Source: Lunularia cruciata (Eukaryota > Streptophyta > Marchantiopsida > Lunulariales > Lunulariaceae). Taken from it: a DNA stretch of 64,000 bases. The stretch spans positions 39,384,333 through 39,448,332 of the forward strand of contig OX419756.1 of the NCBI GenBank assembly GCA_948567375.1. Direction: 5' to 3'. Positions 9,435 to 34,959 of this stretch are shown in pieces (position 1 is the stretch's first letter; each line of letters starts with the position of its first letter). The notes under the pieces are model-generated. The model saw only the letters and a list, made by a program, of their open reading frames with translations, was not told the origin of the DNA and made no database searches. A program made the position numbers and the translations under genes.

Positions 9435-9546
<112 letters not shown>

Positions 9547-10510
9547 ACATCCTTCACGAGGTCTTCCCAACCCCCTCTTTCTCTCAAAGGTTTCTTCTCC
9601 TGCACAACCTCATCTCCTTTGATAATTTCTTTTGTCCCTTTGTGTTCATGTCTAGACCTTTAATGTCTCCTTCAAGAAAATCTCCCTTGCCAGCCATGTC
9701 TCAAACCCCTCTCTTTTCTCTCCTATCACACTCTACTTTTAAAACCCTTACACAAGCTAGCCCTCCCTTTGACTGTTCTCCCCTACTACACTTCATTCTC
9801 AAAATCCTTCTATAGGCCAGTCCTCAAAGCATAGGACTCATTCTCATGTTCAGGCCTCCTCTCATAATCCAAAATCTCTTGCATGTTCAAACAAGATCAG
9901 GCCTTCACTCCAAGCATAAGATATCATTCCACTTCTTGTTCAGACCAGATCAGCCTTCTCTTGAGTTTGCTTTCCCTTCATTTCAAAACCCTCTCATTTG
10001 ATTCTTGTTCCCATGTCCAAGCAGCCTACATGCCTCTTCTCATCCCCCCTGGGAATTCTTTGCCTCCCCCAACCTATCTCCTTCCTTCAATATGTCTCCC
10101 CTCTATTTTCCCCAAAACTACTCCCTATCCTCCACTGTCCAACCTAAACCTCCCATTCTTGTCCTTCTCCTTCCCTTATCCCCCAGCCTTTCCTTCTTTT
10201 AAACATGCCTTTTTTCCCTATTTTCTGTTCACTTTCCTCTTGAAGCCCAAAAACCCTCTCTTCTTCTTTTCACATGCACTTCCTTTGGGAATTTTCCCTA
10301 CCAGCCCTTTTGTCATGCCTTGCTCCTCCAAAAAAAAAAAACTCCTTCTATTTCTGCCTAGCCTCTTCCACTTATCTCCTTGAAAAATTCCCCTTTCCAG
10401 CAGGCCTTCACCCTTTAAATCCTAAACCCTCTTTTCTCACAATCCTCTTCAAACTTTTCCTCAAAGACCCCAAACTTTTCCTCTTCAGCTTTCAGCTCAT
10501 GTAACACACA

Positions 10511-11499
10511 AACTCTAAAGTTTTTGAACATCCCAAAGAACTCCTGAGCTTATGCCACATAAGAGAAACATTTGAGCTTATGTACCATAAGAGAAACACC
10601 TTGAGCTTATGTAACACTCAAAACTCTTCCAAGCTTATGTAACACTCAAAATAAGTCCCTAGTTTATAGCAACAAAAAACAACCTCCAACTTACCAATGA
10701 CATAAACAATACTCCCGAGACACAATAACATAAAATGCCAAGTCATTGTAACATAAGAAGAAAATAAAACTATCGCACCAAATGGCACCAATGGTATGCA
10801 TGGGTTATTTTTTGACAATAGTGATAGTTAGGATTTTGAGCTCAAGAGGTGAAAGTAGGACCAATTTATTGTGAGTTGAGCTCAAAAAGTGAAATTGAAG
10901 GTGGAGGTGGGAGCACATCCTTTTGTAGAGATTGGACAAAACAGATTTTTCCAATTTAGCTTGAGTGAAGAGTTAGCAGAAGATTTAGTGGTCAGCCAAA
11001 TTTAGGGATTTATGTTAGATTTCATGTCAAATTTATATCCAATTTTGTGAATGGTTTACATAAAATTTTGGCAAGAAGAACTTTGATCCCATTCTCCGAT
11101 GATCCTTGTAACTCAAAAAGTAAATAGGTACTCCGATTATGTCATATGCCAAATGGTGGCATAGTCAGTCCGGTGTTGCTTTATGAGATGGAGGTTTTGT
11201 TTAGCACAAAACAAAACCTTCTTGTAATTGGACCCCCTCCATTCTCTACTTCTTGTTTGTGCACCATGTTTGTGTGATGTGACCTAAATTAGAGCATTGG
11301 TGCTCTGGTGTGCTCTCAATAGTAAGGCTAGAGTGATAACAAATCAGACTATCTATGTTTCTCTCTGGTGAGACACAAAGTGATGACTTACAAACCGTGA
11401 GAGTGCGTGTTGTGATGGCAGGTTACAGGTTGCTCTTTTCCCTAGTGTAGTTGTCTCAGTTAGAGTTACATTAGTGGGTAGGGTTGGCACTTGGTGGTG
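10511..11499. other. Leader region upstream of gag, short direct repeats
   Basis: At 10,545-10,650 the phrase gagcttatgt recurs four times, with acataagagaaaca or aacactcaaa between, giving irregular 30-40 bp tandem repeats. The rest has no recognisable gene. The words gcattggtgctctggtgtgctct at about 11,293 may lie near the primer-binding area of the large element, but I cannot match them to a tRNA. Confidence 0.4.
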
Positions 11500-12850
11500 C
11501 TTGGTTGGTGGTGTTGGCACTTGGTGGAGTACTTGCGGGTGGCGGTTTGTGGTTACTTTGTCACGATAGAGTTCTTTGGGGTTTCTAGAAGAGTTAGCTC
11601 TACAATACGCAATGGGTTTACTCAGAGTGGTGCTTGGTATCAACTTGTATCTCAAGTCCCAATGAGGGAGGAGATTGACTCTAAGTTGGAGTTTGACTCA
11701 AGAGCTGATTTAGTTGAGAGTGCACTTGGTGTGTCCACACTATTATTGTGGGACATGGATGAGATTTATGGGGCCTCCAAAGACCCTAGGTGTTACTCTG
11801 GTACAATGGGTACCATTGAGTTGGATGACTTTATCTAGGAGCTCAATAGTTGGTGTGATCTATAGTAGATGCGGAACCCAACTTCGTTCATACCTTCATG
11901 GCATGGAAGGGGTTGTTTCAACATTTGGAAGGTCCGTTGATAGACGATTACCATGAGTGTAGGAGAGCTCACTTGGAGGAGATTGAGTTATAGAGACAAT
12001 ATTGGTCTCTGAACTATGTCTCTATCACTTTAGGCTTGGTTGCCGAGAGTTGATTGGCAATACCCATGAGTTCTAGCTTGAGTAGTGTTGGTGGAGCTAG
12101 TGGAGGTGCACTAGCTGGAGATAGTGCTACTATGAGTCGAGGTACTGCGAGGTAGTGTAGTACCAGGGTTTAACCTCATGGTGGAGTTCTTCCAATGTTT
12201 GAGGCAAGACTACTAGGAAGTGCGGATTGACAAGCTGAGGAGCTTGTAGGAGTTCCAACGGAAGGTTGGAGAGAGCCAACATGATGCATACACTCGTAGG
12301 AGGTGGCTGATCAGTTTCACTCAAGGAGTTACTGAGGCCCAAGCAGTCCAATTTTGGTATGGGATACTGGACAGGGAGTAGAGTTTAGGGTACAACATAG
12401 AGTTTGTGATATTATGTTGTTACAGGCTACTTTGCTCACTTTGGTAGTGGTCTTTGGTTTGGCTGGGCGTATTGAGCTCAACATGGTGGAGGAGAGAGTG
12501 GTGACATCTGGATTTGGTAGGGAGACCTCATCACAACTATGACTTCTTCTAGAGTGCACCACATCCAATTGGTTTTTGAGGACAGGGTGGACAGTCTAGG
12601 TCCTATGGAGTAAGTGGAGGGCCTACTATAATTAGATCTTTACCTTCAATTTTGTGTCAATAGCAGCCAATGAGTAATGGTGTTGCTTGTTGGACTTGTG
12701 GTGGATCTCATCATAGGAGAGAGTGCCCTTAGGGCAGTGGACAGATACCTCTGGTGCATCAAAGCTAGCACAGAGATAGTATGAGCATTGCCATAGATTT
12801 GGTCACACTAGTGATTGTGCCTTGACCTACACCCGGAGTTACGGAGTGGT
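11500..12850 (+). pseudogene. gag of the methyltransferase-bearing Ty3-like element
   Basis: A reading frame at 11,641-11,838 (GTMGTIELDDFI) and frames around 11,950-12,330 resemble retrotransposon gag, including GVTEAQAVQFWYGILD near 12,327 and RIELNMVEERVVTS near 12,470. Two zinc-knuckle-like motifs follow. CWTCGGSHHRREC is at about 12,689. A second, at about 12,780, reads YEHCHRFGHTSDC and has lost its first cysteine. Multiple TAG stops and frame changes make it non-functional. The order gag then protease then methyltransferase shows that it is the 5' coding part of the element resumed at 20,631. Confidence 0.7.
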
Positions 12851-13383
12851 AGGGCTGCTATAGCAAGCACTAGAAGAGCTCCAATTCATGCAGGACGAGG
12901 TGGTGGTAGAGGATCTACACCTAGTAGAGGTGTAGTACCTACCCTTACTTGTGATACAGCCATGGCTACTTGCATTGATCAATTAGAGCAGAGATTGGCT
13001 AGCATGGCCATTGCTCAGAGGAGATCAAATTCGGGTGTTGAGGCTTCTACCTCATATGTTGGTGATAAAGATGCTTTGGACTTCATGTGCGGAGCAACAT
13101 AGATGGATGCATCTACAGTAGTGATTAGGAGTGTAGTACATGCTCCAGAGCCTAGAGAAGCATCAGTGGAGTTGGATCCACAAAGAGGAGAGGTTGGGAG
13201 ACAAGTCAGACTTCCCCAATCTTTCTTGCTCTTTGAGGCCCTACATACATCATCCATGGCTCCTAGAGGTCCTAGTAGAGGTGTGGTAGGTGGTGATGGG
13301 GTGCATGATGGACTACTTATTAATCAACCACCTGCTACTACACAGATTGAGTCTAGCATGATGTTGGAGCAGCTAAGCTGATT

Positions 13384-14014
13384 ATGCACTACCCTTTGTT
13401 TTCAGCTAGTGACATGTTTACATTGAGAGTTGACCCAACCCCAATGTTCTGGTTGGTTGCCACGCTTTGTGAGAGTAGGGATGATGTGGTTCCTACTTCT
13501 AAAGCAGAGGTCATTGATAGTGGAGCTGACTTGGTTGAGGAGCATGGGATCCGCTCAACAACCAGTGGTTTATGGCAGGCAACAACGGCTAGATTGGAGG
13601 AGTTGCCAGTTAGATCGGCCTTTGAAAGAGCACGGTTCACACTTGGTGTTGTCGTATTGGATAACCAGAGGAAGACTTTCCATTTGGTGGGACCTTCAAG
13701 GAAGGTCTATACACCACAGAGAGTCTTATTAGACTTTGGTGCACAACCCCTAATATTGGGGAAGGCTGCAATTGTCGGTCTGGAGTTATGGAAGACCGGT
13801 GTGGAGAAGTATCCATTCAGATCCAAACATCTCTAGGTGGTGGTTCAACAAAATACATCACACATGGGGAGCTTGTTGTCTAGGTTCATCCTGGTCACCC
13901 AATTGATAGCTTGGTGGTGAGAGCTCAAGCTATTGCGACAATAGTTGAGTCATATGATGTGCTAGTTGGTGGAGCAATGCTATACCCCATGGGTTTTAGT
14001 ATTGACTATTGGGA
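13384..14014 (+). pseudogene. Aspartic protease of the methyltransferase-bearing element
   Basis: The frame at 13,384-13,836 contains VLLDFGAQPLILGK, an aspartic protease active-site block in which the usual D-S/T-G-A reads D-F-G-A. Text before it (FHLVGPSRKVYTPQ) and after it fits a single-domain retropepsin plus linker. The reading continues with frame changes to 14,014, where the nested Ty3 element begins. The coding sense resumes at 20,631. Confidence 0.65.
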
Positions 14015-14019
14015 GGAGA

Positions 14020-14759
14020 TGCAATACCAAGGGTTAGCCATATGATCTAGATGTGAAATTTGGTTTGGTAACTTCTAGAATGATTTTATACATGATGGTC
14101 AAAATAGATTAGATAGAAGTATCACCAAAAGAGTACTTCTACTAATAGGGTAGAAACCAAAATAGACTTGAGAACCTTAGAACCAATAGCTAGACATATG
14201 ATTTAAAGGTGAGAATTGGTTTGGTAACATCTGGAAGGATGTTACACATGATGGACTAAATAGATCAGAAAGAGGTATCACCAAAAGAGGACTTCTACTA
14301 ATAGAGAAGGAACCAAAATATGCCTGAAATCTTTGAAGGCAATTTTGGAGGCCTAAACGGATGAATTAGGCCTCAAAAATGTGTAGATTCCCCCCCTCCA
14401 ATGGAGAAAAGGCTGGCCTTCCCTCCCCCTGCTTTGTCTTGTCAAGAGCTTTCCAACGGTACCTTACTCATGTGATTCTGAGATTCCTACAGGAAGATTT
14501 CCTAAAAGATTCCCTTTGGTCAAAGCTTGTTTGACCAACCAGATAGGACCTAGACCAGACAGGTCACCCATCCAAGTAAGTAATCCAAGGGTAGAGCTTG
14601 CTGACATGTCACCTATCTGTGTCCCTAATCCTATGGTGGAGCTTCCTTGGAGGAGATCCTCTTTGTCTATATAATAAAGAGAAGGTGCTCCCTTGCGGCA
14701 TCAAATGTTTGAGTGTGCAATCTATGTTTTCTCTCTTCTCTTGTCCTCGGAGTATTACA
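14020..14759 (+). repeat. 5' LTR of nested Ty3 element
   Basis: It begins TGCAATAC and ends GTATTACA; the consensus termini TGTAATAC...GTATTACA are perfect inverted repeats. It contains an internal duplication of about 160 bp (near 14,050-14,190 and 14,200-14,345, both with accaaaagagKacttctactaatag), a TATA-like TATATAATAA at about 14,668, and transcription start and poly-A regions typical of an LTR. Confidence 0.95.
14668..14677 (+). promoter_or_regulatory. LTR TATA box
   Basis: TATATAATAA lies about 90 bp before the LTR end and is repeated at the equivalent position in the 3' LTR (about 20,534). It is the best candidate for the element's Pol II promoter. Confidence 0.6.
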
Positions 14760-14760
14760 A

Positions 14761-14772
14761 TGGTATCAGAGC
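14761..14772 (+). other. Primer-binding site, initiator Met tRNA 3' end
   Basis: TGGTATCAGAGC starts one base after the LTR end and is complementary to the 3' end of plant initiator tRNA-Met. This is the standard site for plant LTR retrotransposons and contrasts with the half-tRNA site of the copia element at 154. Confidence 0.95.
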
Positions 14773-14899
14773 AAGTGTTCTAGTCCAAGAGAGTGGATCA
14801 CCCCTCTTGGAATAGCACGAACTACTGAAACTGAGTAATTTGAGGTGGAGAATATAGAGTAATCACTAGACATAGGAAGGGCTTTAGAGAGCGGATGGG

Positions 14900-15329
14900 A
14901 TGGATGCACCGGGGGGACAATTTCGCGCACTTAGCTTTCCATTTTCAAACCCATTCCACATGAAGGTTATGTACATCCAGCGTGAGAAGATGAGTGTATT
15001 GCTAGTTTATCACTTTGGTGCAGAATTCATGGACAGAGTGATGAACTCACCAAACCCGATGATTCTACCTGTGGTGATATATGACAGAGAGTGGGATTTG
15101 ACGATCTACATTCTATTATGATAATATGGATATGAATGTCCCAAATCCTCTCCCTTTCAACACTCAAGTAGAAATCCGTTATGTAGTGAGGCCAAAAGTG
15201 ATGTTTAGAGATTTTGTGGTTAGGAAATTTGGTGAGGAGTATTTTCAACGAGTGATAGCTTCTGAGGTCCCAATGGTAGTTCCGATAGTTCATGCACCTT
15301 CCAAAGTGATTATATTGACTCTGTATTGA
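14900..15329 (+). pseudogene. Gag leader module with an internal duplication
   Basis: Two reading frames (14,900-15,121 and 15,126-15,329) contain related segments. Both have a PF..N/T..VE/KV.Y pattern, then FGAEFMDRVMNSPNPMILPV in the first and FGEEYFQRVIASEVPMVVPI in the second. I do not recognise the module in ordinary chromovirus gag. It lies between the PBS and the gag core and would form the N-terminus of the polyprotein. Confidence 0.5.
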
Positions 15330-15399
15330 AGTAGACGTTAGCAATTGGGTGTTGCAGGAACCATGGATCCGTAGTTGCAAGAGCTGGTGCAAGGAATGC

Positions 15400-16442
15400 A
15401 AGGGATGCTGAATGATTTTGAGAGATTAAGATGACCATGGAGACATTACAAAGTCAAGTGCAGATCATCAGGAACGATCAAGCCATGCAAGGAGAAGAGC
15501 CGTCTCAAAACCCAGTACCTGCAACCGAAGTACTTGGAGAGGCCTACAAACCTTATCAACGATGAAGCCACATTGCTACTCCGGATGAAGAAGACCTGCA
15601 ACATCGAGCCTTACAAAGGGCAGCGTTTGATAGGAGTAGTGGAAAATTGGATCTCGAGAATGAATTGATATTTCCGATTGTTCTCAACAGAGATCACAGA
15701 GCATGCTGCATGCGTGTTTGCATGTGGGTACTTGACCGATAAAGCGCTCACATGGTATGATGCTTGGGAATGATCCATGCTGGCCGAGAGAAGAGAGATC
15801 ACATGGACAGCAATGCAAGAAGGACTGTTGAAGAATTTCCAATTGGTGGATTCTATGCAGATGGCTCAAACCTGCCTATGGGGATTGAGACAAAAGAATA
15901 GCATACAAGAGTATGTGGAGGCATTCCTGGATCTACAAGTCGCAATTACCGACATGAGTCTAGCAGAGGCTCTCGACAATTTCAAACAAGGGTTGAAAGA
16001 GCGGATTCGCCAAGAAGTCATGGTGCAAAACCCTTGCACGGTATTTGAAGCCATTGCTTGTGCGCAAAGAATAGCAGGAGCATTAGGTGGAGGTGAAGGA
16101 GTAGTTCTACCTCAACATTATCGGGTAGAAATGCCACACATGGGTGGACCAGTACCGATGGAATTGGGCAACCTTCGATTCTGGGATCGAGGAGCACGGC
16201 CGCTTCAAGGAGAGCGGGGGCGGGTAGAAGAACAAAGAGATGGAGTCCCACAAGAAGAAGGGACTCGAGGAGAACAACGTCGTTGTTACAATTGTGGCCG
16301 TATTGGGCACATATCTACCAATTGTCGCACTCGTTTCCCTAGAGGCCCTCGGCCTTCGTATAGGCAATCTTTGAACAACATGGAGAGGCACATTGAAGAG
16401 GAGGAGGTGGAAACCACTTTGGAAAACAAAAATTGCCAGTAA
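15400..16442 (+). pseudogene. Gag core and zinc knuckle of nested Ty3 element
   Basis: The longest open part is 15,777-16,442 (221 codons). Its retrotransposon-gag text includes QKNSIQEYVEAFLDLQ and EALDNFKQGLKERIRQEV. A complete CX2CX4HX4C knuckle, CYNCGRIGHISTNC, is at about 16,283-16,325. Upstream of 15,777 the frame is broken by stops (about 15,430 and 15,770). The product of an intact copy would be the structural particle protein. Confidence 0.85.
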
Positions 16443-16801
16443 ATGTACCTCACGGCCTTATTGGCTCAATAAGGAAGCAGACAAGCAAGGGAAGGAAGAA
16501 GAATAATGCGCAAAGATCCCAAAAGGCAACCTCACAATTGATTGTCGTGAATGGAATCCTAGAAGGTAATCAAGTGAGAGTATTAATAGATCCGGGAGCA
16601 ACAAAGAATTTCTTGTCTCGCTCTATTGCAATAAGATTGGGAATGGATCTAGAGAGAGATGGAAGTGAAGAAGTAGAGTTACCAAATGGGCAAACAAAGA
16701 GGATTGAATCATTACCTAGACGGGTAACTCTCTCTATAAGAGAATATCAGGAAGCAATTGAGTGGCGAGTGATACAGTTAGCCCGTTATGATGCAATTTA
16801 A
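16433..16801 (+). pseudogene. Aspartic protease of nested Ty3 element
   Basis: The active-site block reads VRVLIDPGATKNFLS (about 16,578-16,622), where the usual D-S-G-A is D-P-G-A. The flexible flap region VELPNGQ and the C-terminal hydrophobic block are present. A TAA stop at about 16,799 falls inside the conserved block after the protease (DAI-stop-GMPW, usually leucine there). Confidence 0.8.
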
Positions 16802-18390
16802 GGCATGCCATGGATGGAGCAGTACAACCCAATGATGGATTGGAGGAAGAAAGTAGTGAGAACCCACCAATGGTCAATCATTGGGGTTAAAGAAAAATCA
16901 CACAGGTAGAAACTGCCTCTATATGTCGTAGGGACGACAACTGTCTGTAAGACCGATAGATGTTTTATGGGTCTAATAAGAGAAGTCTAGAGTGCACAAC
17001 TTGCTGGAAAAATTCTTGAGAAATTGAAGGATGTGGTGGATGAGTTTCAAGATGTCTTTCTTGATGATCTACCCTCAGGATTACCACCTAAAAGGCGAGT
17101 AGATCACAAAATAGAGACACTCTCGGGGAAGAGACCTCCTTGTAAGGCCTCATATCGCCTATCACCTCATGAGTTGGAGGAGTGTAAGACTCAAATTGAG
17201 GAGATGCTACAGAAAGGGTTCATCTAACCTAGCGTATCACCATATGGGGCCCTTGTCTTGTTTGTGAAGAAGAAGGATGGTACAATGCGCATGTGCATTG
17301 ACTATCGAGGTCTCAATTAGCAAACAGTGAAGAACAAATACCCCTTACCTTGCATGGATGACCTGTTTGATCAACTCCATGGAGCAAGATATTTCACCAA
17401 ACTGGACTTGCAAAGCGGTTATAATCAAATCCGAATTGCAGAGGAGGATGTGTACAAAACTGCCTTCCGAACCAAGTATGGCCACTTTGAGTATCTTGTG
17501 ATGCCTTTTGGCCTCACCAATGCACCTGCCACTTTCATGAGCCTAATGAATGACATATTTTGTCCATACTTGGATAAGTCTATTATTGTCTTCTTGGATG
17601 ATATCTTAGTATATAGTAGTACGATGACAGAACACAAACAACATCTACGAGAGGTCCTCCAGATTCTAAGACAAAATCAGTTGTACGCCAAAATCTCAAA
17701 GTATGAGTTTGGCAAGTTTGAAGTAGACTACTTAGGGCATAGAGTAAGTGCAGAGAGCATTCAAGTATTGACAGATAAAATAGAGGTCATTCAAAAATGG
17801 AATGCCCTAGAAGATCAGACTCAACTTAAGAGCTTCTTGGGGTTGATGGGATTCTATCGTAGATTTGTCAAGGACTTCTCCAAGGTTGCACAGCCTTTAA
17901 CGGCACTACTTGGCAAGGGGAAGAAGTGGACATGGGGAACCGCACAAGAGTTGGCCTTTCAAGAATTGAAGGCTGCCTTGCTACATGCACCAATCTTGAA
18001 ATGGTATGACCCAAAACGTCCAATCAAGTTGGCTACAGATGCATCAAGCGTAGCAATAGGAGCAGTCCTACAACAAGAGTAGCATGATGGATGGCATCCA
18101 ATTGCATATTTCTCTCGAAAGTTGTTACCGGCATAGTGCAACTACCACACCACAAAACGGGAAGAGCTGGCCATCGTTCTAGCAACCAAGCATTGGAAGC
18201 ACTACCTGGGCAAGAAGGCATTTGTAATAGAGACAGACCACAAACCTCTAGTCTACCTCGAGACGCAGAAGGATCTATCTCGTCGCCAAATTCGGTGGGC
18301 AGAGTGGCGACAATGCTTCAACATGACAATCACCTACGTGGAAGGTAAGAAACAATTGGCAGATGCATTCACCCGTATGCCAATGGCCAA
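16802..18390 (+). pseudogene. Reverse transcriptase and RNase H of nested Ty3 element
   Basis: RT blocks are well kept: [16 protein letters not shown] (17,331), [13 protein letters not shown] (motif A, 17,399), [13 protein letters not shown] (motif B, 17,500) and [10 protein letters not shown] (catalytic DD box, about 17,589). YLGHRVSA starts the thumb. RNase H begins at about 18,019 with [17 protein letters not shown] and continues past stops near 18,080 and 18,134. Stops also occur at 17,226 and 17,318. Frame shifts are few, so the element is younger than its host element. Confidence 0.92.
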
Positions 18391-19375
18391 CAACTTGGTG
18401 GCAGAGGTTAAGATTAACCCTAAATTCTGGCAAGAGATTCTAGTTGCTACAAAAACTGATCCACAGATTGTAGAAGCGCAATCGTCTAAAGGTATCACCA
18501 GCACCCAAGGACTTACCTTTCAGAATGGCAGATTATGGATCCCAAATGTCCCAGACTTACGCACCATCATTCTAGCAGAATGTCATGATTCGGCCATTGC
18601 AACTCATGTCAGAGTAGACAAGACCTTGGATGTAGTCAAGCGCCATTACTATTGGCCCAAGATGAGCAACGACGTGATGGACTATGTGCGTAGCTGCCCA
18701 CTTTGTCAACAAAACAAAGCTTCTAATCAAGCTCCTACAGGGCTCCTTCAACCTCTCTCCACTCCTACCCAACGTTGGGAACAAGTGAGTATGGATCTTG
18801 TCTACGAATTACCCAAGACCACCTCAGGGTTTGACTCCATTGTGGTCTTTGTGGACCGGCTCAGCAAAATGATTCATGTACGCCCTACCACCAAGGAGGT
18901 GACCACTCCACAACTAGCTCAACTATACTTAGATGCAGTCTTTGCTCACCATGGCTTGTCTAGAGTACTCATCATCGATAGAGACACCTAATTCACCAGT
19001 TTGTTTTAGCAAACACTCTTTGGTTTCTTCAAAACCAAGTTTGCCATGTCTATAGCTTACCACCCACAAACAGATGGCCAAATAGAGCGGGCTAATCGCA
19101 TGATTGAAGACATGTTACGCGGCTTCACCTTAGAAGAGCAAGAGAGGTGGGACACCCTACTACCATTGGTGGAATTTGCTTACAACAATTCAGTGAATGC
19201 CTCCACCCAGGTCACTCCGTTCTTCCTCATGTATGGTGAGCATCCCTTCACACCTTCTAGCTTGATGAAGATCTGTCCAGTGACTACCAAGGTTGATGCA
19301 GTCAACACATTTGTTTCTAGAATCCAACAAGGTGTGGAGAGCGCCAAGCACAGGTTACAGATTGCACAAAATTGA
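18391..19375 (+). pseudogene. Integrase of nested Ty3 element
   Basis: The HHCC zinc domain is present as a histidine pair followed by CPLCQ (about 18,582-18,708). The catalytic core holds the first aspartate in VSMDLVYELP (18,786), the second in LIIDRDT (18,970), and the glutamate in DGQIERANRMIEDM (19,073). Two stops at about 18,989 and 19,007 lie between the second aspartate and the glutamate, so the protein cannot be made whole. Confidence 0.92.
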
Positions 19376-19408
19376 CAAAAGCAGTATGCTGATGCACACC
19401 GTCGGCAC

Positions 19409-19866
19409 ATGGAGTTCAATGTTGGGGATCAAGTGTGGCTATCGACAACCAACCTCACATTGGTTGGATCTCGTAAGCTCAGACCTTGTTTTATTGGGCC
19501 TTTCTCGATTCTTTGTCGCATCGACGCTGTGGCCTATCACCTTGAGCTACCACCACATATGAAGATCCATCCAATGTTCCATGTCTCCCTACTATGCAGA
19601 TATGCTCCCCGATCAAGCCAAGGTCTTTCCACACATGACATTCAACCTTGTCCGACACTCATTGATGGCATAGAGGAATATGAAGTGGAGCGGATTCTCC
19701 AAAAACGCATGCGTGGTACTCGCCATCCGCGGGTGGAATATCTAGTACAATGGAAAGGTTACCCCCTCTATGAAGTAGCCTAGGAACCCGCTGCCAATTT
19801 GGCACATGCACCGGTGTTGGTACAAGCATTTGAGCAACAATTGCGCAACGAGGACGTTGCGTCTTA
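19409..19866 (+). pseudogene. Integrase C-terminus with chromodomain
   Basis: After the GPF-type block (LRPCFIGPFSIL) and HPMFHVSLL, a chromodomain runs from about 19,676 to 19,850: YEVERILQKRM, then VEYLVQWKGYPLYE. A stop falls exactly at the conserved tryptophan before EPAANL (about 19,782), consistent with TGG to TAG. In chromoviruses this domain directs integration to particular chromatin. Confidence 0.9.
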
Positions 19867-19879
19867 AAAGGAGGGAGGT
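19867..19879 (+). other. Polypurine tract
   Basis: AAAGGAGGGAGG lies immediately before the 3' LTR start at 19,881, the normal place for plus-strand DNA priming. Confidence 0.85.
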
Positions 19880-19880
19880 C

Positions 19881-20625
19881 TATAATACCAAGGGTTAGCC
19901 ATATGATCTAGATGTGAAATTTGGTTTGGTAACTTCTAGAATGATTTTATACATGATGGTCAAAATAGATCAGATAGAAGTATCACCAAAAGAGTACTTC
20001 TACTAATAGGGCAGAAACCAAAATAGACTTGAGAACCTTAGAACCAATAGCTAGACATATGATTTAAAGGTGAGAATTGGTTTGGTAACATCTGGAAGGA
20101 TGTTACACATGATGGACTAAACAGATCAGAAAGAGGTATCACCAAAAGGGGACTTCTACTAATAGAGTAGGAACCAAAATATGCCTGAAATCTTTGAAGG
20201 CAATTTCGGAGGCCTAAACGGATGTATTAGGCCTCAAAAATATGCACATTCTCCCCTCCTCCCTAACAAAGAAAAGGCTGGCCTTCCCTCCCCCCTGATT
20301 TGTCTCATCAAGAGCTTTCCAATGGTACCTTACTCACGTGATTCTGAGATTCCTACAAGAAGATCTCCTAAAAGATTCCCTCTGGTCAAAGCTTGTTTGA
20401 CCAACCAGATAGGACCTAGACCAGACAGGTCACCCATCCAAGTAAGTAATCCAAGGGTGGAGCTTGCTGACATGTCACCTATCTATGTCCCTAATCCTAT
20501 GGTGGAGCTTCTTTGGAGGAGATCCTCTTTGTCTATATAATAAAGAGAAGGTGCTCCCTTGGGGCAGCGAATGTTTGAGTGTGCAATCTGTGTTTTCTCT
20601 CTTCTCTTGTCCTTGGAGTATTATA
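19881..20625 (+). repeat. 3' LTR of nested Ty3 element
   Basis: It starts TATAATAC and ends GTATTATA (consensus TGTAATAC...GTATTACA with transitions at both tips). It is followed at once by GGAGA, the copy of the 5-bp target duplication found before the 5' LTR. The internal ~160-bp duplication and TATA box are as in the 5' LTR. Confidence 0.95.
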
Positions 20626-20630
20626 GGAGA

Positions 20631-22330
20631 CAACTTCCTATAGACCATGTTGGCAGTCTAGTGAGGGATGAGTATGTTGCCTACCAATATGCTTCAGTAA
20701 TGGCAATCTTGGTTCACTATAGTCCGGGACCATGGTAACATCAGTTTCATCTTTTAGTGGTGTTGTTACTTGGCCTGGTGACTTATTGGAGGAGAACACC
20801 CATGCAGAGGATACTCCAATACCAAAGGATATCACTTGGATTTGGACTACAAGTGAGATTGTTCCATCCACCTTAGATGTTCCATTGTGGATTTTGAAAG
20901 AGGCATTGCAGTAGATCGGTTGGTGCAATAGACTTGGAGTAGAGCCTTTGTACCACCAAGAGATGAGTGTGAGAATGAGCCTCTAGAGTCAATTACCTTG
21001 ACACCCCTAGATATCACACTCATTGCTTGGCAATATCCAGTAGAGGGAGTATGTCTATTGGAGTTGTTTGGTGCGATTAGCACCAGACTAGTTGCAGTCC
21101 TATAGGCGGGTATAAGAGTACAGAGGTACTTGTATGTGGAGAGAGATGAGACTACTAGGCAAGTCTCTCTCCATCATGTGGCACACTTGGTCAATCGGTA
21201 TCTTGAGTTATTACCAATGTCATCAATCAAGGGTTACCAAAAGGCCCTACCAACATACATTTCCTTATTAGGAACACATGATCTGGAGCAATATGAGCCT
21301 ATTCATTTGGTGATTTGGGATGGCCATGTCAAGGACATACACAGGCTAGCTGAGGTTTGGGTCTTCAAGATCACCATTCCGGTATGTTTTGGAAGATGTT
21401 ATGGATACTACAACATCTCCATGTTCATCAGTATGTTTTCCTAGCTTATAGTTTGGAGAACAGCCCTTTGATGGGTGATTCTTGTACCCGAGTGGTGGCA
21501 AGTACACATTAGGTCCATTCTTGGATGGGACCTGCTATTTTGATAGATGCAGCCAAAATGGGATCATGGGCTCATCGTCTTTGTCTTTGGTGGATGAACC
21601 TCTTACCCAGAGAGGTTCTACAACATGCATATGATGTGATTCAGCTACTAGACCATATCATTGTTGATGACATCTTGGATGTTGGGCACCAATCTCAAAT
21701 AGTGGTGGTGGTTGATAGGTCACCAATGGCCGTGGTGGACCTATTTATATAGCTTACAACCGCTTTTCTCACACTTATGAGTTTCCCAAGCTCCCATGCT
21801 TTTTGAGAGGGAGGTCTTGGACTTGTTTGGGACTCACTATTAAAGCAATTAGTGGAGCCTAACGCCAATGAGAGAGAGAGGGTGATGGGTTTTCACACCA
21901 ATATTACTACTATTCCAACAATGTCAGAGGCATCCATATGTAAAGTGTTAGGTCAAGCTATGGACCTAAACTGTTTGACTTGGATTGTCAGCCTTGGCTT
22001 GGTAGAGCAACATAGGATATGCTTGATATGCATCACCACTCAAACACTTGTGAGCCTTGTGCCTATCAAGATGATTCAAGTACATGCTAGGAGCAATGGA
22101 CCTGGTGGACCTAGTGGACATGGTATTCTTGGAACACAGCCAATAGCTACTAGGGAGAGTGGTCTACTTGGAGTCCATCCAGGTGAGCGTAAGCTACTTG
22201 GATTACACACTTGATCTACTTGGGATGCTGCTAGAGGTGTGGAGCTTACAATTAGAGTGGAGGGAGTTTTTCACACTGAGATTGGGACCTCTAGTGCTTA
22301 GGAGCATGATGCTATTGCTCCCAAGGGTCC
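20631..22330 (+). pseudogene. C5-cytosine DNA methyltransferase domain carried by the Ty3-like element
   Basis: Motif I is VCLLELFGAIST at about 21,049-21,084 (family FxGxG, second glycine changed). Motif IV, the catalytic Pro-Cys-Gln, is intact as G-W-P-C-Q-G at 21,318-21,335, one base out of frame with motif I. Motif VI is YSLENSPLMGDS near 21,447 (usual Glu-Asn-Val, here ENS). A motif VIII-like GSWAHRLCLWW lies near 21,558, and the closing AMDLNCLTW near 21,957. From motif IV to the end the sense stays in one frame with a few stops (about 21,346, 21,508, 21,750). The upstream frame 20,732-20,913 (FSGVVTWPGDLLEEN) is the linker to the protease. An intact enzyme would transfer methyl groups from S-adenosylmethionine to cytosine in DNA. 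This copy is dead. Confidence 0.85.
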
Positions 22331-22339
22331 AATGTAATA

Positions 22340-23872
22340 GCCAATTAGTTTGTCTTCTACTCCTACGACAATTACAAAGGATACTTGGCTGCTAGATCTT
22401 GGACCCAAGCTTATAGAAGAGGAAAGATGGAAAGTTTGGAGGTTTTTGAGGAGCTACACAAGTTGTTTTTTCTTCAATATGAAGGATTTGGGTGCTCTGA
22501 AAGGACTTGGTATTTGGATTGAGCTGACTAGCAATACATCAATATTCCGACGTCCTTATCAATGTAGTAATATGGAGAGGAAATTGATTCAAAGTTGGAT
22601 TAGAGATCTTTTTGAGGTTGGTTTGGTGGAGATTTCACATGGAGAGTATGCATCAGCTACAGTGATGCCAGCCAAGAAGGATATGCATGGAAATTACACA
22701 AATAGGTAGATGTGTGAATTACCTTCCTATCAATTGATATACTAGGGCTGATTGGTATGCCATGCCTACACCGAAGGAGATTTTTTATGCTATTGGGCAT
22801 CCAAAGGTCTTCAATACTTTGGATCTTCAAGCAAGATATCATCAAATGCCAATCAAGGAGGAGGATAAGTCCAAGACAACATTTTGGGCTATTGATCCTC
22901 ACGGCAAGGATGTATTATATCAGTAGAGGTTCTTACCATTTGGGTTAAAGAACACTCTTGTTGAGTTCCAGAGGGTCATGGATAGGATCCTAGCTAGATT
23001 GGATTTTGCTTGGTGCTATATTGATGACATTTGGGTCTATATCACTACCATAGAGGAGCATGAGAGACAATTGTTGGAGGTGTTTGAGAGGTTGAGATCT
23101 CATGGACTCAAATTACATCTTGGGAAGTGTAGGTTCTTCCACAAGCGGGTTGAGTATTTGGGTCACACTATCTACCCCGAAGGACTTGGTGTTCAGCTGA
23201 CCAAGGTGGAGGCTATTGCACGTATTCCTTGACTTACGGATGTTAGTAGAGTGCAAGCATTCCTTGGGTTGGCAAACTTCTATTGCCATTATGTTAGAGG
23301 AATTTAGTGCCATTGCCAAGGCCTTGACAAAGCTGACCAAGCTTACACAAGAGTGGTGTTGGGGAGATGAGCAAGAGAAGGCTTTTGTAGAGCTCAAGGA
23401 GAAGTTGACATCTACTCCTATTTTGAAGAGACTGATCAGAGGACGACTATTTTAGGTTCACACTGATTGGAGTTTGTTGGGGCTTGGAGCAGTGCTCACC
23501 CATCATCATGATGAGAGGAAAGAGTTTGTGGTGGCCTATGCTAGTCATTCCAACAATTTAGTAGAGGCAAAGTATAGTTCATATGAGGAAGAGTGCTTGG
23601 CAGCAGTTTGGGTAGTAGCACATTTCCGATATTACCTATTTGGTAACCCCTTTACTCTCATTACTAATTGTCAGTCACTAAAGTGGTTGATTGAGTCCAA
23701 CAAGCTTTCATGGAAACTTGCACGATGTGCTCTGATTTTACAAGAGTATGAATTCACTATTATTCATAGACCTGGAATGGTGAACCGTGATGCAGATGGG
23801 TTGAGTAGAAACCCATGTCCTAGCCAGCAAGATCAGACTGACTGGAGCACGTTGGCATGGTGAGATAGATGA
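22340..23872 (+). pseudogene. Reverse transcriptase and RNase H of the methyltransferase-bearing element
   Basis: RT blocks are present: NTLDLQARYHQMPI (motif A, about 22,807), FLPFGLKNTLVEFQRVMDRI (motif B, about 22,930), CYIDDIWVY (catalytic DD, about 23,013) and VEYLGHTIYPEGLGV (23,149). RNase H begins at about 23,458 with HTDWSLLGLGAVLT and ends HRPGMVNRDADGLSRNPCPS at about 23,820. A few stops and frameshifts interrupt (22,709, 22,924, 23,231, 23,453). The sequence is clearly a different Ty3 lineage from the nested element. Confidence 0.9.
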
Positions 23873-24240
23873 GGAGATGATGCCAGGTTGGCATGCATCT
23901 ACCTTTCTCTGTATATATTTTGAGGCTTTGGTGGTATCCCTCTTAGCGTATACATGAGGAGTTATTGAGGTCACAGATCCAGAGAGTGTCTGTAATCATT
24001 GCCTAGTTGTTGGCAGTTTCTAGAATGACAAATCAACTACTGATCTAAGTTGATTTGATTTGAGTGGTGGAAACAAACTAATTATTGTGTTTCTTTAGAG
24101 TCTATGTATGACTTATGTGTGAGTTATGTGTCTATAGTGTATGATGTTGACAACGATGTATGTTGTGTAGCGATGTATATACGCACGACGTCTTGAGTGT
24201 CATTGTTGTCAATGTGGTTGCTCGTCTCACATGAGCATCC
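23873..24240 (+). other. 3' end region of methyltransferase-bearing element
   Basis: Non-coding sequence after RNase H, including 23,990-24,085, which repeats 7060-7150. No integrase motif follows RNase H. A clean LTR boundary or target duplication is not visible. Confidence 0.45.
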
Positions 24241-25800: not shown

Positions 25801-26007
25801 ATACTTAAAAATGCGGATCCGGCGGTGAATAGTGGGGAGCGTATCGGCTGTTACAGTTGCCACCTGTGAGCATCTCAGGACGACACGTGGGAACTTGAAG
25901 TTAAGTGAAACTAAAGGCAAGGGCCGCAAGGTGAAGCTATCGAAGAATCGAAAGTGTGACAGTGAGGTTTGTCTGAGTTCGAAGAGTCGAAGAGGATCGA
26001 ACGCGTC

Positions 26008-27026
26008 ATGGAATCATCGTCCAGTACCCGGCCGCGCAATCTCCGGTCGCCGTTTCAGTTGTTTACTTCTATCACTTTTGCTCTTGCAGCGGTTGTGTTT
26101 CTCTCGGTGCTCGTTTACAGGACATTATCAGCTACCGTCGAATCTGAAGTGAGGACAGTGACTTTCAACACGCAAGGACGGGGAAGATATCCGACTATCA
26201 ACGAGATCACACCACCACATCGTACCGATCAACCAGACAGGATGGCAGCAGCGAATGTTGAGCAGCGTAAGTGTGTTGATTGTTAATGTTTATTTCAATC
26301 TGGCATTCTGATTAGAGGCACAATTTCTGATAGACCTTGTTTTAATAAACGATCCTAAAATTGTGGTATTGGTTTTGATGACCTTTGTTCTTGAGATCGC
26401 GTTGTGTAAGATGGGATTGGAAACGATGATGAGCCTCTCGTTCATTGCCGGTGATGAATGTCTGACAGTTGGAAGGTTAATGCACCATAATTCTGTCTCT
26501 GTTTCTCTGGTTCTATTCACCTATAACTATATTGAAGAGCAGATGTTTCTGTAGTCGTTCAATTGGACGCAAGAGTACCGGGACTCCTTGAGTAGATGTG
26601 AGCGGAGTCTTTACAAGGTAGCTAGGTAGGGTATAGATGCGCGACATAGCAACGTTTTCTCTCATAATGTGCGTTCTCAATTATGGATGTATCTAGAATC
26701 CATGGATCTAAGATGGATCTAGAATCGAACCTTCTCCGCGGTTACTTAGGTCGTCGGTTGTTACTAAATCTCCATCGTAACCTGTAAATCTGCCTTCTCT
26801 TTGTATCGGACGAGAAATTTTATTATCCGTATATTTTGCAGGTTGGGCACATTTTGTCGGACAGGATGCTGAGGAGGCAAAGAAAAAAATTCAAGAAGAT
26901 CATCCCCAGCTCAAGGTGGTTGTCGTTCCCGAGGATTCGTTCATTACCATGGATTACAATACTGCTCGGGTACGCATTTTCAAGGATGCTAACCAAAAAG
27001 TAGTCCGAGCTCCAAAGCGTGGTTAG
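26008..27026 (+). CDS. Potato-inhibitor-I (MEROPS I13) family protein with N-terminal membrane segment
   Basis: Two coding exons, 26,008-26,266 and 26,842-27,026, joined across C|GTAAGT and TTTTGCAG|GT, encode 147 aa ending at TAG 27,024-27,026. Residues 88-147 are a complete inhibitor domain: WAHFVG, then EEAKKKIQEDHP, LKVVVVPEDSFITMDY and RVRIF. The reactive loop would be cut between Met123 and Asp124, a usual P1-P1' pair in this family. Family members are tight inhibitors of subtilisin- or chymotrypsin-like proteases. Typical members are about 70 aa. Here about 85 residues precede the domain, with a basic N-terminus (STRPRNLRSP) and a hydrophobic run at residues 17-37, so the protein is secreted or anchored with the inhibitor facing the lumen or outside. 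An in-frame non-ATG extension to 25,969 is unlikely. No neighbour is functionally linked. Confidence 0.9.
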
Positions 27027-29440: not shown

Positions 29441-29584
29441 TATATATTTCCGTTAATTCGATGTATGCTATTTGTATACAGGTGTTATTCTTAAATTTTA
29501 TTAGGTTGCATTACTTCTGTTGATATTAGAAGATTTCAAATATGAATCTTATGAAAATTAGACATTCCTTTTAAAGGTTAGTAG

Positions 29585-30400
29585 GTGTTTTCGAGGAGGT
29601 TTATTATTGCCACCTTCTGTTTCCCTTTGTTGTTTAGTGTTTATAAAGACTCAAGCATCCATAGCGCGAACAGTAATATACTTTATATCCTATCCTCTTA
29701 CACTTTGCTCTCATTACCCTGTTACCCTTCGACCAGTATCTGCAGCCACACCATCCGACAACTTTTGCATTCCTTCATTCCCCGGCTAATTCCTTCTCTA
29801 ATATTTTTCCTTTGATTGATTCCTGGTTCGAACTCTCCCATTCTACAGAGGTCCTACCCGACTCCAGCCCACGGTCTTAATCTTTATCGATCGAGTGTAG
29901 TAATATATTTTATATCCTATCTTCTTACACTTTGCTCTCATTCCCCTGTTACACTTCGACTAGTATATGCAGCCACACAATCCGACAACTCTTGCATTTC
30001 TCCATTCCCCAGCTAATTCCCTCTCTAATATTTCTCCTTTGATTGATTCTTGGCTCGAACTCTCCCATTCTACAATGGTCCTACCCGACTCCAGCCCACG
30101 GTCTTAATCTTTATCGATCACGCATTGTTTACTGGCAGGCTCTTACATAACATTTCCTATACCTTGCACTCGTTTGCATAGATGCTTTTGTTTCACTTTG
30201 TTTACTAGTCTGGAGACCATCGGTGAGTATCAATTATGCCTTTGTTACAGGTTACATTCTATGCATTCTACCTTAGGGCTTTAACACTATTCTAACATTG
30301 TGAATTATGTACATATTGCTTCTCGATCATTTGCGTTTCGTGAATTCTGGATAAGCCGTTCTGGGAACTGCTTCTGCTCGGCTCTCGTATACCAGTATAT
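29585..30400 (+). mobile_element. Plus-strand copies of the hairpin-tailed retroposon, tandemly duplicated
   Basis: The segment from taatatactttatatcc to ggtcttaatctttatcgatc is present twice with a 227-bp period (about 29,668-29,891 and 29,895-30,118). The second copy continues through the family's 3' half (ttacattctatgcattctacc, gaattatgtacatattgctt) to the tail hairpin at 30,355-30,369 (CCGTTC TGG GAACTG, one arm decayed). A B-box-like GGTTCGAACTC is at 29,824. The orientation is opposite to the copies at 41.8, 51.7, 52.5 and 61.7-64 kb. Confidence 0.75.
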
Positions 30401-33400
30401 CTTGTCCTGTATACATCCATAATCGTTTTCATGCAAATGAACGGTTTCTTCGCAGGTTTTATTTTCTGTTCATTTCTTCTTTCGATGATTCGTGTTACTT
30501 TTCATTTCCATTCTTTTTCTTCTATTATGTGTTGGATACCATTGGAGTTTAGCCCCATTTTATCTCCTATGTCTTTTCCTTTGTAAAGCTTGATGGATCT
30601 CCCCCTCCTTCGTGTTGTCACACATGTCTATTCTGTTTGATTACCCCCTCTCGTTTACACACGTTAATTATTAGTCTCTGCAGGTCTTTTAGCTTTGGAT
30701 CAAATCTTGATCTTGCTTTGATTTAATTTCGTTCTGCATGTTATCGCTCATCACCTTTCAGCATGTGCCTTTCAATTCTTTTCTGTTGATTTGATCATTT
30801 CATTTGACAGTATGTATACATTTTTATGCACTTTCAATGGGATCATGATTCCTCGTTCAAAGATCGGTTTTTGTTCTCATTTCCCGATATATATTTGACA
30901 GTACATTTATAGTAATTTTTATATGACGAAAATATAAGCGTTTTCCTAAATTAATTAATAATAAATTAATAAAATTAATGTTTTATCGATTCCTACTGGC
31001 ACCACGTTTATAGACTAAGAAGATGCGTACGCGGGGAACTGTACTTCTACATGATGACCAAAATAAGACATGTTTGCTTAACTCCACCGTAATTCATGTT
31101 TGAACTTCAAGATCCAGAATTATATTTGACCAATCGACAAATTTCTGTATATTAATCTGGAATAATATTTTATAATTGTGTAATTTCCGGATTTCTCAAG
31201 ATTAACAACGATACATTAAGCAGGTTGAGTAAAACAAGTTTAAACTAAAATGATTACAAGTTTTCACAAGGCCTGCTAGACATGGACATAATCTACTCCT
31301 TCAATAAGACGATAGCTTAAAGATTTTAGTTAATTATAGTTTTAATCTAATTAAAGATGAAAAATATTTATTTAAAGATGGTAGAACTAATTTAATATGA
31401 AAAATTAGAAATTTAATTACATGACCATTATATTTATTATTTAAATATTTAATTCAACTTAATTTTCATGTAAATTATAAGAGGAATTTTCAACCCAAAG
31501 AAAGAGGATATATTGAGAATATAAGATGGTGAAACAAGAATATTGTATTGAGAAAATAAGAAAGATAGACCCATCGTCACTAAGAAGGAAGTTTATGAAT
31601 ACTATTCCTACATCAACTAAAGTAAAATTTGCTAAAAATTAAACTAAAATTTAATATTAAAAATATTAAAAAATGGTTTAATGTGTGTTAATCTCAACAA
31701 GCATAGAAAAGGTATTCAAAATCTGAGTTTCCAATATGACATCAAAACTAATTGCCCATAAGACCTATTTGTAACCTTAGAGACATGAGCAATATCATTA
31801 CTTAGTGTTGACAGCGGCTACAGGGACTACATTTCATGTGCTTAAACTGAGTAACAAAGAGGAAGAAGTCCTTACATTCAGATTTGAAAATTTGGAGTAC
31901 TATCTACAACATGCAAATGGATGGACTATGTCCATCCATACCATATTCCATCCATGTAAATGGATGGACTATGATATCCAAGATAACATACATAAAGATA
32001 ACATAATAATGCTCTAGAAAAAGTAACAAAGAAGAAGCATATCAATTTTCAAATTTAGTGAAATAGTAAAACAAGCAAGTGCATGGTGATGCTTGAGAGG
32101 AACTTGCAGAATGATAACATAATATGAGTTACAACACTTCTTGTAATAGATGATAATAAGGATGTAGTTTGTGAGATGATATACTCTTATTATATTTTGT
32201 TTATTGTAAATCTTTAGAAAAGAAATACAAGATGATACATACGGAAAGAATTCTATTCTGATTACGTATCTCTACATATAGAGATTAATCAAGAATGAAA
32301 GGTTCAATAATTAAATTTCAAATCTAAATTTTGGTTAGATGTATAAGTGCATTGATCAAACCATGGAAGTCTATTAGAAAATTTAATCTACATCCTTACA
32401 TGTATATATATCCATGAGGATATTGCATTTCTAAAACTAAATAATTAAAACAATTTTGGTGCCTTTTGATTGAATAGAAATATAGAGATTATGACGTCTA
32501 TCAACTATTTAGCATATTTAAACTAAGATTATTAAACATAAAAATATATTTAACTCTAAATAATTAAAACAACTCACAAATTAGATTCCATATGATAGAA
32601 TAAAAATAGAGAAACAATTAGATTTTGAACTTATGTATATTTGAAGATGCACCAATCTTCATTCTTGCTTTTATTAGCACCTAATAAGTTAATTTTTATT
32701 TATTTAACCTATTTATTTATTTATTTATCATATATAAATGTATTTTTGGTTATATTTTTCAAATAAGACTTTAATTAGCTTTCTAAAAGTTAATAGCAAA
32801 ATCAATGTATCCAAAGTTTACTCCTTAAAAGTTCCTAAATGAAATTATTGACATTTGAGTCTATATATTTATTGGATATATTTGGATTTAAATATATGGC
32901 ACTGGATTCCATTTGGCCAATTCAAGGAAGTTCTATAAATGGATAAATATATGGATACAAAATTTATATCTGAAATATGAATTTCCAGATAATAAAATTT
33001 TATATGTATTACTTAAATCTTAAATTTAAAGTTTAAATTATTGGATTAATGGACTGAGTTTGGCTTTACATTTATTGTTTGAATCATGATGAAATTTTGT
33101 TTCATCAGTTCACTAAACCATATTAGTAAATTTGGAGGCAATATCAATCAATACTTAACATTCCCAAATTCTACAAACTAGAGATTTCACAATGTGGATT
33201 TTGAAATCCTTCATTAGGTAAGTATTTGGAACTTCATCTTTTTATATTAATAGTTTTTATAGAAAAATTTCAAAAATACATAATTAAAAACCTATAACTT
33301 TGATCATTACATACAACTTTTTTAATGTAGATTAGTACATTTGTGAATTTTTTATACCATTTAGTTGATTAAGAAAAATTTCTTATTTACATATATTAAT

Positions 33401-34959
33401 GGATACTTTTAGATTTGGATTCAATAGTTTTTAGTATTAAACTTTCACAACAAGGATACTTTAAATACTTTATGTCTATTGATCTAATATAAAAATAGGT
33501 TTAAGAAAATATATCAAGAAGTATATATTAAAAATCCATATATATGTATGCACATTCAGAGCAATCAACCAACTGAAATCCAGTTTTATTTTTTTTAATA
33601 TCTATCAACAAGTGCTTATTATTAAATTTAGATTCCATATTTATCCAGAATTAGGATAGAAAATGTTAATGTCACAAATTTGATAAATCTGGATGTTGGT
33701 TTCTGATGATTGAACATAAGTATAAATCTTAGTGGATTTATCAGAGCCCGTTTACAAATAAGAGTATCTATATTCAATTTTACAAAAGAAAATGATTTAC
33801 ACATATGATATTTTGGTATCAAAGTCTATCGGTTGTTCTAAATGTGAAATTTTATGAAACTTGATAAAAATGGATTCGGAGTTTTATATGAGAAATATAT
33901 ACAAGCATATAGATCTATTATCTGGATTGAAATATGAATTCGAATCAGTCCAATAAGCCACATTTTATCTACAATAGTTAATAGTTAGCTTTCTAAAATT
34001 CTCCAACTCTATAGATTTAAATTATTATTCATAATTTTCTTGAGAAATCTTTTGAGAGTGCATGGTTAATGTTTTGTATGCTATATGCAAATTCTATGAC
34101 ATATTTATGTTTCCAAAACCTTTGTAGGCATAATGATCTTCACAGATTACATGAAAGGTATATACAGACAGAGTGATAAAGTGATACAAATTATGCCAAT
34201 CATCAGTGAATCATGAGCAAAAGAGGGATTCTGGAACGGTAAATCCACGCAATAATAACTATAATATTGGATAAAATATATAAGTAAATTAAGAATTTTT
34301 TCCTAATTAATTAAAGTTAATTAAAGATCGTAGAATGATAATTTTCTATCTACAATCACCGATCAATAAATTTATTCTTATTATATATATGATATGAAAG
34401 GTTAGATTATGAAAACTCTTCACAGAGAGCAAGAAGTTCATATACTGAGATTTATAAACTCTAATGCATACAAATTATAAGTTCCTTAAGTTTCGATAAG
34501 AATTACTCCCATCGTGGCATTGTCATTCTTAACTTTACATAAAACAATAACCTTTGCACTGTAAACTTAATTGTGCAAGATGTTGAAGACAAACTGTAGC
34601 TCGTGCTTCTTGATTTGTTCCCCTTAACTTGATCATCAACATCTGTTCGGATGGATACTTAGTGCACTACACTACATTCATCGTTGGTAATCTCTCCAAC
34701 CATAATTGTATCCACGGACTTATGATTTATCTACCTGGGGCCGGCTAAGATAAAGTAAATTAATATTGACAAAAAGAAGTATTACCATATATCAATTCAC
34801 TTGAGTTTCATCAGCTTAGATCAAATGAACAATCCTATTCTCGTAATTGATTTTGTATCTTCTATCAGACCTACTTAACCATAGTTAATCCAGGATTACG
34901 AGTAATGTTTAAACTAAAAGTCATCTCTAATTAGACTCTCTAACAATCGAGTTCCTTGA
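30401..34959. other. AT-rich intergenic region, no gene seen
   Basis: Very AT-rich from about 30,900. The longest frames are 60-70 codons (31,805-32,017; 33,628-33,822) with no motif and are expected by chance. Two nested palindromes occur at 31,917-31,968. No RNA gene, RT motif or long repeat was recognised between 31 and 34.9 kb. Confidence 0.5.

Follow-up and report, generated by a model that had tools for sequence, protein, structure and literature searches.

An old Ty3-type retrotransposon encoding a DNMT3-like methyltransferase in Lunularia cruciata, a dead copy from an abundant family

The 64,000-nucleotide stretch of Lunularia cruciata DNA analysed here (the window; C2:39,384,333-39,448,332 of the 566-Mb assembly) holds at 6,710-24,190 a Ty3-type retrotransposon copy, old and dead, that encodes a DNMT3-like C5-cytosine methyltransferase (MTase) between its protease and its reverse transcriptase (RT). 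This copy is called the outer element; a later and unrelated Ty3 chromovirus (14,020-20,625, + strand), recognised by long terminal repeats (LTRs) and a target-site duplication of its own, sits inside its polyprotein frame. The MTase domain of the outer element (20,914-22,106, + strand) is a pseudogene with one frameshift and five stops in the reference frame. Its catalytic motif IV, GWPCQG (GGATGGCCATGTCAAGGA), occupies exactly 21,318-21,335 (+ strand), where an earlier note, made from the letters of this DNA, had placed it within a decayed MTase. Homologous proteins match the domain by tblastn in two pieces, 20,914-21,333 in frame 1 and 21,318-22,106 in frame 3 (expectation value, E, to 2e-131), with the switch of frame at about 21,316.

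The earlier note had offered a match to PF00145 in some frame as the check on its reading. In a direct scan this check fails outright: no Pfam family reached E<=1 for any of the three decayed + frames, scanned with stops written as X. A read-through query of the window MTase retrieved 35 proteins among 8,000 scored candidates (E to 1e-129), and since 25 of the 35 carry PF00145 the null scan is overridden. These homologs include Calypogeia, Marchantia and Sphagnum records, as well as a Riccia record without a precomputed domain. When a profile of 19 relatives was compared with the PDB, the top match was DNMT3A (2qrv, E 4e-17), followed by DNMT3B and, more weakly, by 4onj (3e-9), DRM2 (6e-7) and HhaI (2e-5); 4onj, titled only 'DNA methyltransferase', we take to belong to the DRM group. 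By sequence, the MTase of the element family is assigned to the DNMT3 type. It shares with cellular DNMT3 (DNMT3A/B and plant DNMT3) the order of motifs, motif VIII (AHR.R..W.NL) and the C-terminal GFP...LLG block. It differs from them in being embedded in an element, in having PCQ in place of the PCN of DNMT3A, and in having no other Pfam domain beside it in open reading frame 1 (ORF1) of L012, a copy elsewhere in the same genome. The window MTase is 84% identical to that of L012.

The position of the MTase between a gag/protease and an RT/RNase H module, also claimed by the earlier note, is borne out by collinearity with single polyproteins: P0005 and P0008 up to the MTase, P0036 and P0014 from protease to RNase H. 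Across 12.3-23.9 kb the tblastn order is gag, zinc knuckle, protease, linker, MTase, RT and RNase H, with gag/protease matched at 12,301-14,021. The match to P0005 stops at 14,018 (residue 409) and continues at 20,627, and the coding region of the outer element is therefore one polyprotein split by another element. Its first part (11,067-14,019, + strand) comprises the end of the leader and a broken ORF1 segment with gag, zinc knuckles and aspartic protease; it matches P0005 and P0008 by tblastn, has 84.4% DNA identity to L012, and carries eight frameshifting indels and six stops in the reference frame. The second part of ORF1 is the protease-MTase linker (20,627-20,911, + strand), where P0005, P0008 and P0036 pick up again at the residue reached at 14,018. 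Downstream of the MTase follow a broken RT (22,383-23,352, + strand; Pfam, tblastn and tree) and RNase H (23,294-23,915, + strand; Pfam and tblastn).

A host MTase gene or pseudogene could in principle lie by chance beside retroelement debris. The earlier note had excluded this on the ground that all flanking pieces are retroelement. Its conclusion stands but the argument is weak, because the adjoining 14.0-20.6 kb piece belongs to a different, younger Ty3 element; that unrelated upstream neighbour and the lack of a Pfam match in the window frames are what can be said for a host gene. The evidence on the other side can be summarised as (i) relatives have single proteins that run from protease through MTase and RT to RNase H; (ii) many copies in the genome have the MTase between the terminal repeats, not as a neighbour outside them; (iii) in the window a TCTT duplication lies just outside the ends of the element. 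The genome copies refute both a chance neighbour and a cellular DNMT3 gene, and we give this alternative a negligible chance. That the window MTase is real and part of a Ty3-type element, as the note had held, is thus confirmed by the order in relatives' proteins and by terminal repeats and target-site duplications in five of six copies and the window.

The outer element is bounded by 4-bp target-site duplications, TCTT, at 6,706-6,709 and 24,191-24,194. It begins with terminal repeat A1 (6,710-7,157, + strand; start TGTCACACC), the end of which was placed by alignment with copies; 6,710-7,131 and the A2 repeat of L011, another copy in the genome, are 82.8% identical. At its 3' end a fragment of A2 (23,987-24,084, + strand, by alignment with copies) is followed by B2 (24,085-24,190, + strand), which is 91-93% identical to the B repeats of own-genome copies and differs from them in its final base. 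Between 23,988 and the A2 fragment the element has lost its integrase, its PHD finger, B1 and the first part of A2. The missing integrase was considered as a family trait and rejected; copies and relatives carry integrase, so its absence is a loss in this copy. A 94-bp repeat at 7,062 and 23,987 was likewise rejected as an LTR start, being an internal part of repeat A in the own-genome copies. A 3.4-kb insertion occupies about 7,391-10,831 of the leader and is absent from L010, L011 and L012, where the bases corresponding to 7,390 and 10,832 are directly adjacent. The insertion contains a CT run of 53.5 units (9,437-9,543), a 107-bp tandem pair (8,563-8,780) and a strong C excess on the + strand. 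This insertion, the nested Ty3 and the loss of the outer integrase are absent from the earlier note.

The earlier note called such an element unusual for a plant genome, which does not hold for this one. A 34-base pattern spanning the ORF boundary, its stop codon written as NNN, has 709 matches in the genome (0 for the reversed control). A genome search for the MTase scored 111 near-full-length matches among 13,362 first-look candidates, all of them 72-74% identical to P0002 over almost the whole domain and 66 without an internal stop. Of 23 mapped copies, 20 lie within 5% of L012. The order protease, MTase, RT/RNase H, integrase is found in 20 of 20 fetched copies, many of which are broken by stops or shifts; these copies (L009-L028) overstate intactness because they were selected for long open frames. 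The longest stop-to-stop ORF1 has 1,428 residues (L009, L010), and ORF2 is intact at 1,037 residues in L012 and L014. In L012, ORF1 has two CCHC knuckles and the protease site LLDSGA, and Pfam finds RVT_1, RNase H, H2C2 (PF17921), rve (PF00665) and a PHD finger (E 2e-10) in ORF2. The family plan is A1; ORF1 with gag, protease and MTase; an in-frame UAG; ORF2 with RT, RNase H, DDE-type integrase and PHD finger; and B1-A2-B2.

This repeat arrangement was seen in six of six copies checked, with repeat A (about 450 bp, TGTCACG...) at the 5' end and B1 (about 106 bp), A2 and B2 at the 3' end. Of 25 rows searched, several of them ending short of the B1-A2 joint, 14 matched it; the window keeps A1, the A2 fragment and B2. 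A1 and A2 are 97.3-99.8% identical in six copies, one of them over 227 nt only, and terminal-repeat identity in fetched copies is 97-100% except in L014 (93.2% over 118 nt). Exact 4-bp duplications (CATA, ACTC, GAGG, AGTG, AACC) flank five of six copies when the element is taken to end in ...GCACGACA; the 4-bp reading was picked after looking, a 5-bp reading ending one base earlier fitting four of the six. The copy at C7:16616-16626 kb (L035, L036) has A repeats 99.8% identical but lacks a matching target duplication and has additional bases within and ahead of B2.

A related kind of element was described by de Mendoza et al. (2018; PMC5890265, cited here for part of its text). Their KnitGypsy-Dnmt3 of Klebsormidium nitens carries a DNMT3 in Gypsy elements with DIRS-like repeats, has a 'domain composition typical of Gypsy' and shows a ratio of non-synonymous to synonymous substitution rates (Ka/Ks) below 0.2. 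The Lunularia family resembles it in its Ty3/Gypsy RT and RNase H, the DNMT3-type MTase within the polyprotein, the DIRS-type A-coding-B-A-B repeats and the DDE integrase. P0065, a K. nitens protein probably of the KnitGypsy family, has the order protease, MTase, RT, RNase H, integrase. Unlike KnitGypsy-Dnmt3, the family here has a land-plant host, hundreds of copies, an MTase encoded in a separate ORF1 that ends at an in-frame UAG, a measured 4-bp target duplication and a PHD finger, a term absent from the main text of PMC5890265. As hundreds of related copies occur in this genome, the kind of element known from an alga is also present in land plants. SymbioDIRS-Dnmt3 of Symbiodinium, from the same source, likewise combines a DNMT3-type MTase with A-coding-B-A-B repeats in a retrotransposon. 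It has a tyrosine recombinase and a DIRS-type polymerase, in contrast to the DDE-type integrase domain and Ty3 RT here. Pfam scans of ORF1 and ORF2 of L012, limited to these two frames, found no tyrosine recombinase, and the 4-bp duplications in five of six copies and the window are not those of a DIRS element. With Ty3 chromoviruses the family shares the integrase domains and the order RT, RNase H, integrase; it departs from them in its PHD finger, in having no chromodomain in L012 ORF2, and in split repeats, A only at the 5' end and B-A-B at the 3' end, in place of plain LTRs.

In the literature searched, from which most subscription papers and all preprints fell outside, PMC5890265 is the only primary description of MTase-bearing Gypsy elements that we found. 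PMC12344493 cites it for streptophytes and dinoflagellates, and the word 'bryophyte' is absent from its text. Within the same literature, and allowing that a bryophyte description may exist elsewhere, we found no land-plant carriers, high copy number, 4-bp duplications, MTase on the Gag side of a candidate leaky stop, PHD finger, or second architecture with the MTase after RNase H.

Relatives were found in Marchantia, Calypogeia, Riccia, Sphagnum, Closterium and Klebsormidium. By our own profiles, 37 of 244 proteins examined have both MTase and RT, among them Klebsormidium P0065 and Closterium P0053, P0121 and P0141; in P0119, whose code Tetstr1 suggests Tetraselmis, the MTase is cut N-terminally. 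The protease lies ahead of the MTase in 31 of 31 proteins with both. The earlier note proposed to test whether the MTase lies between protease and RT in all full-length relatives; it precedes RT in 30 of the 37. In the other seven (P0085, P0089, P0107, P0109, P0115, P0137 and, on a weak match, P0149) it follows RNase H and precedes the integrase where one is present. This late arrangement forms one group, with six rows in the MTase tree (support 91) and seven in the RT tree (98), where one RT-only protein falls inside; the sequences would fit a single relocation. The trees are quick ones with support only from the Shimodaira-Hasegawa-like approximate likelihood ratio test (SH-aLRT). In them the window MTase and RT each pair with L012 (support 100 and 99), inside clades with Calypogeia and Marchantia and, for the MTase, also Sphagnum.

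De Mendoza et al., in the part of PMC5890265 drawn on here, conclude that the MTase was acquired in the K. nitens lineage. P0065 of that species is recovered at E 4e-85 by a profile that excludes it. The MTase holds the same position in bryophyte and Closterium relatives, which may point to an origin older than that lineage; the tree used includes no cellular DNMT3 and leaves its deep forks unsettled. No relative was confirmed in IMG/VR (searched with a window piece and P0017) or in GTDB genomes (P0003) at a sensitivity suited to close relatives, and at that sensitivity no prokaryotic or viral source is therefore seen. P0161, from a record named Candidatus Obscuribacterales metagenome-assembled genome (MAG), has an element-type MTase and is probably DNA of a plant or alga that was binned with bacterial sequence.

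With somewhat more confidence than doubt, we take the outer element to be a dead copy of an abundant MTase-bearing Ty3 family that would work as follows. ORF2 would be made by readthrough of a candidate leaky UAG. The MTase, encoded before it, would thus be produced in Gag-like amounts and packaged in the particle. If active, the packaged enzyme would methylate the double-stranded DNA copy before integration, and the DNA would arrive with its mark in place. At the target, the terminal PHD finger of ORF2 probably recognises histone H3. Cellular DNMT3 proteins combine an ADD with a catalytic domain, a layout that the pairing of a PHD reader with an MTase writer may be said to resemble.

Readthrough would explain a conserved boundary: a lone TAG separates ORF1 from ORF2, which continues in the same frame, in 24 of 24 mapped copies, a stop codon at this boundary is found even in the old copy of the window, and the six bases 3' of TAG fit CARYYA, presumably a tobacco-mosaic-type readthrough context, in 23 of the 24. 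At the 100 listed sites of the 709 pattern matches, all on C1, the codon is TAG 97 times, TAA twice and TTG once; the pattern prescribes CAGCCA directly 3' of this codon and is therefore no test of its context. In Marchantia, Calypogeia and Sphagnum, proteins of the ORF1 type stop 63-67 residues past the MTase domain (91 in L012), and other Marchantia models extend into RT. Several observations weigh against our account, at this step and at the later ones. The 24 mapped copies are close kin, so that the constancy of the stop is partly recency. MTase precedes RT in one stop-free chain in 30 of 244 proteins (P0039, P0040 and P0065, for example), and the leaky stop is for that reason not general; some of these chains are gene models that possibly bridge a stop. 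An internal Met at residue 48 of ORF2, 57 residues upstream of the RT domain, makes reinitiation possible. The UAG might then be an ordinary ORF1 stop, with ORF2 expressed by internal initiation, reinitiation or splicing, a reading compatible with the others discussed here. The Calypogeia model P0037 begins at the matching Met and the Marchantia models P0014, P0028 and P0036 bridge the gap, as this would allow. The shared frame with its single stop, the predominance of TAG and the CARYYA context argue the other way, and although an ordinary stop is a serious contender, we lean towards readthrough.

For the proposed methylation, the retention of motifs is encouraging: of 24 own-genome copies, 23 have motif IV (GWPCQG), 22 motif VI (ENVP) and 23 motif VIII (AHR.RLWW), and relatives largely retain them too. 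The motif I string LDLFGG matches 0 of the 24, L012 having LELFGG. Among variants present in at least 2 of 18 copies, the ratio of non-synonymous to synonymous changes relative to neutral is 0.50 for the MTase (binomial p 0.012), 0.26 for RT (p 1.5e-5), 0.55 for gag (p 0.04), 0.41 for protease and 0.47 for integrase. Singletons lie closer to neutral (MTase 0.68, RT 0.55, gag 0.83, protease 0.74, integrase 1.09). The variant counts are small and come from 18 of the 24 mapped copies (L005-L008, which are short, and the composite L022 and L024 were excluded), and the neutral yardstick is a noisy noncoding spectrum (785 variants in 1,545 sites). By this noisy measure the MTase is less constrained than RT, and the algal KnitGypsy MTase gave no methylation in yeast, a result that its authors call inconclusive (PMC5890265, in the part cited). 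The domain may instead act on RNA, or be a DNA/RNA-binding or structural part of the particle. A Gag-side position in ORF1, constraint at about half of neutral and an algal relative without shown activity would suit such a role, whereas the retention of motifs IV, VI and VIII would not; we consider it improbable.

The window element bears what appears from its sequence to be the mark of methylated, decaying DNA. In its MTase, transitions have removed 27 of 66 CpG positions against 67 of 460 other C/G, a loss 2.7 times as frequent, and CpG observed/expected is 0.18 at 20,625-23,988 against 0.73-0.87 in two flanking stretches. Three young copies stand at 0.43-0.48, and the nested Ty3, a single element without an MTase, at 0.43; because the latter is equally CpG-poor, there is no sign of self-marking beyond what the host does. 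The low values of even young copies would be expected of long silencing, and the MTase could serve restraint or host benefit, silencing or slowing the family in trans or after integration so that a milder element persists longer. This idea is also raised in the Discussion of de Mendoza et al. (PMC5890265, in part). The equally CpG-poor nested Ty3 implies that host enzymes may suffice, and 20 of 23 mapped copies within 5% of L012, together with the 709 pattern matches, point to recent amplification. Restraint is thus unlikely in our view, if a little less so than a role other than DNA methylation, and methylation before integration is preferred.

A bolder version of that proposal is more tentative, and as a whole we would sooner doubt than expect it. 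It posits a Ty3 lineage of bryophytes and streptophyte algae defined by DDE integrase, DIRS-like split repeats, MTase made ahead of a tobacco-mosaic-type leaky UAG and packaged at Gag level, cDNA methylated before integration and chromatin chosen by the PHD finger. With a writer and a reader of its own, such an element would pass for silent host DNA on entering the genome. Within this lineage the MTase would have changed place once, leaving its position ahead of RT for one between RNase H and integrase. Hosts rely on de novo methylation as a main weapon against transposons, and a high-copy element that carries this weapon raises the question of whether silencing can be a parasite's strategy. 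A DDE-type integrase together with split direct repeats joins an enzyme to an arrangement usually tied to tyrosine recombinases; specialists may be surprised by this, by an MTase on the Gag side of a candidate leaky UAG and by the PHD finger. Copies are numerous, often young and with long open frames, and the mechanism is therefore testable in plants close to model systems.

The nested Ty3 has LTRs of 740 bp (14,020-14,759) and 745 bp (19,881-20,625) that are 95.3% identical, and a target-site duplication, GGAGA, at 14,015-14,019 and 20,626-20,630. Downstream of its 5' LTR lies a primer-site-like stretch, TGGTATCAGAGC, which we take to be a Met-tRNA primer site. It has gag, protease, RT, integrase zinc domain, Tf2-type SH3 and chromodomain; the integrase core (rve) was below cut-off in the Pfam scan. 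A 280-bp segment at 5,148-5,426, 75-76% identical to the LTR of this element, is probably a relict LTR fragment. At about 25,966-27,000 (+ strand), some 1.8 kb beyond the outer element, are host gene fragments that encode a potato inhibitor I domain (PF00280, E 9e-18) and an N terminus resembling a membrane anchor. The 2 kb at 32,001-34,000 have 23.7% GC, far under the rest of the window. A dispersed repeat family is present at 29,583-30,397, 41,778-42,406, 51,666-52,886 and 62,298-64,000, in several copies on both strands with 72-91% identity.
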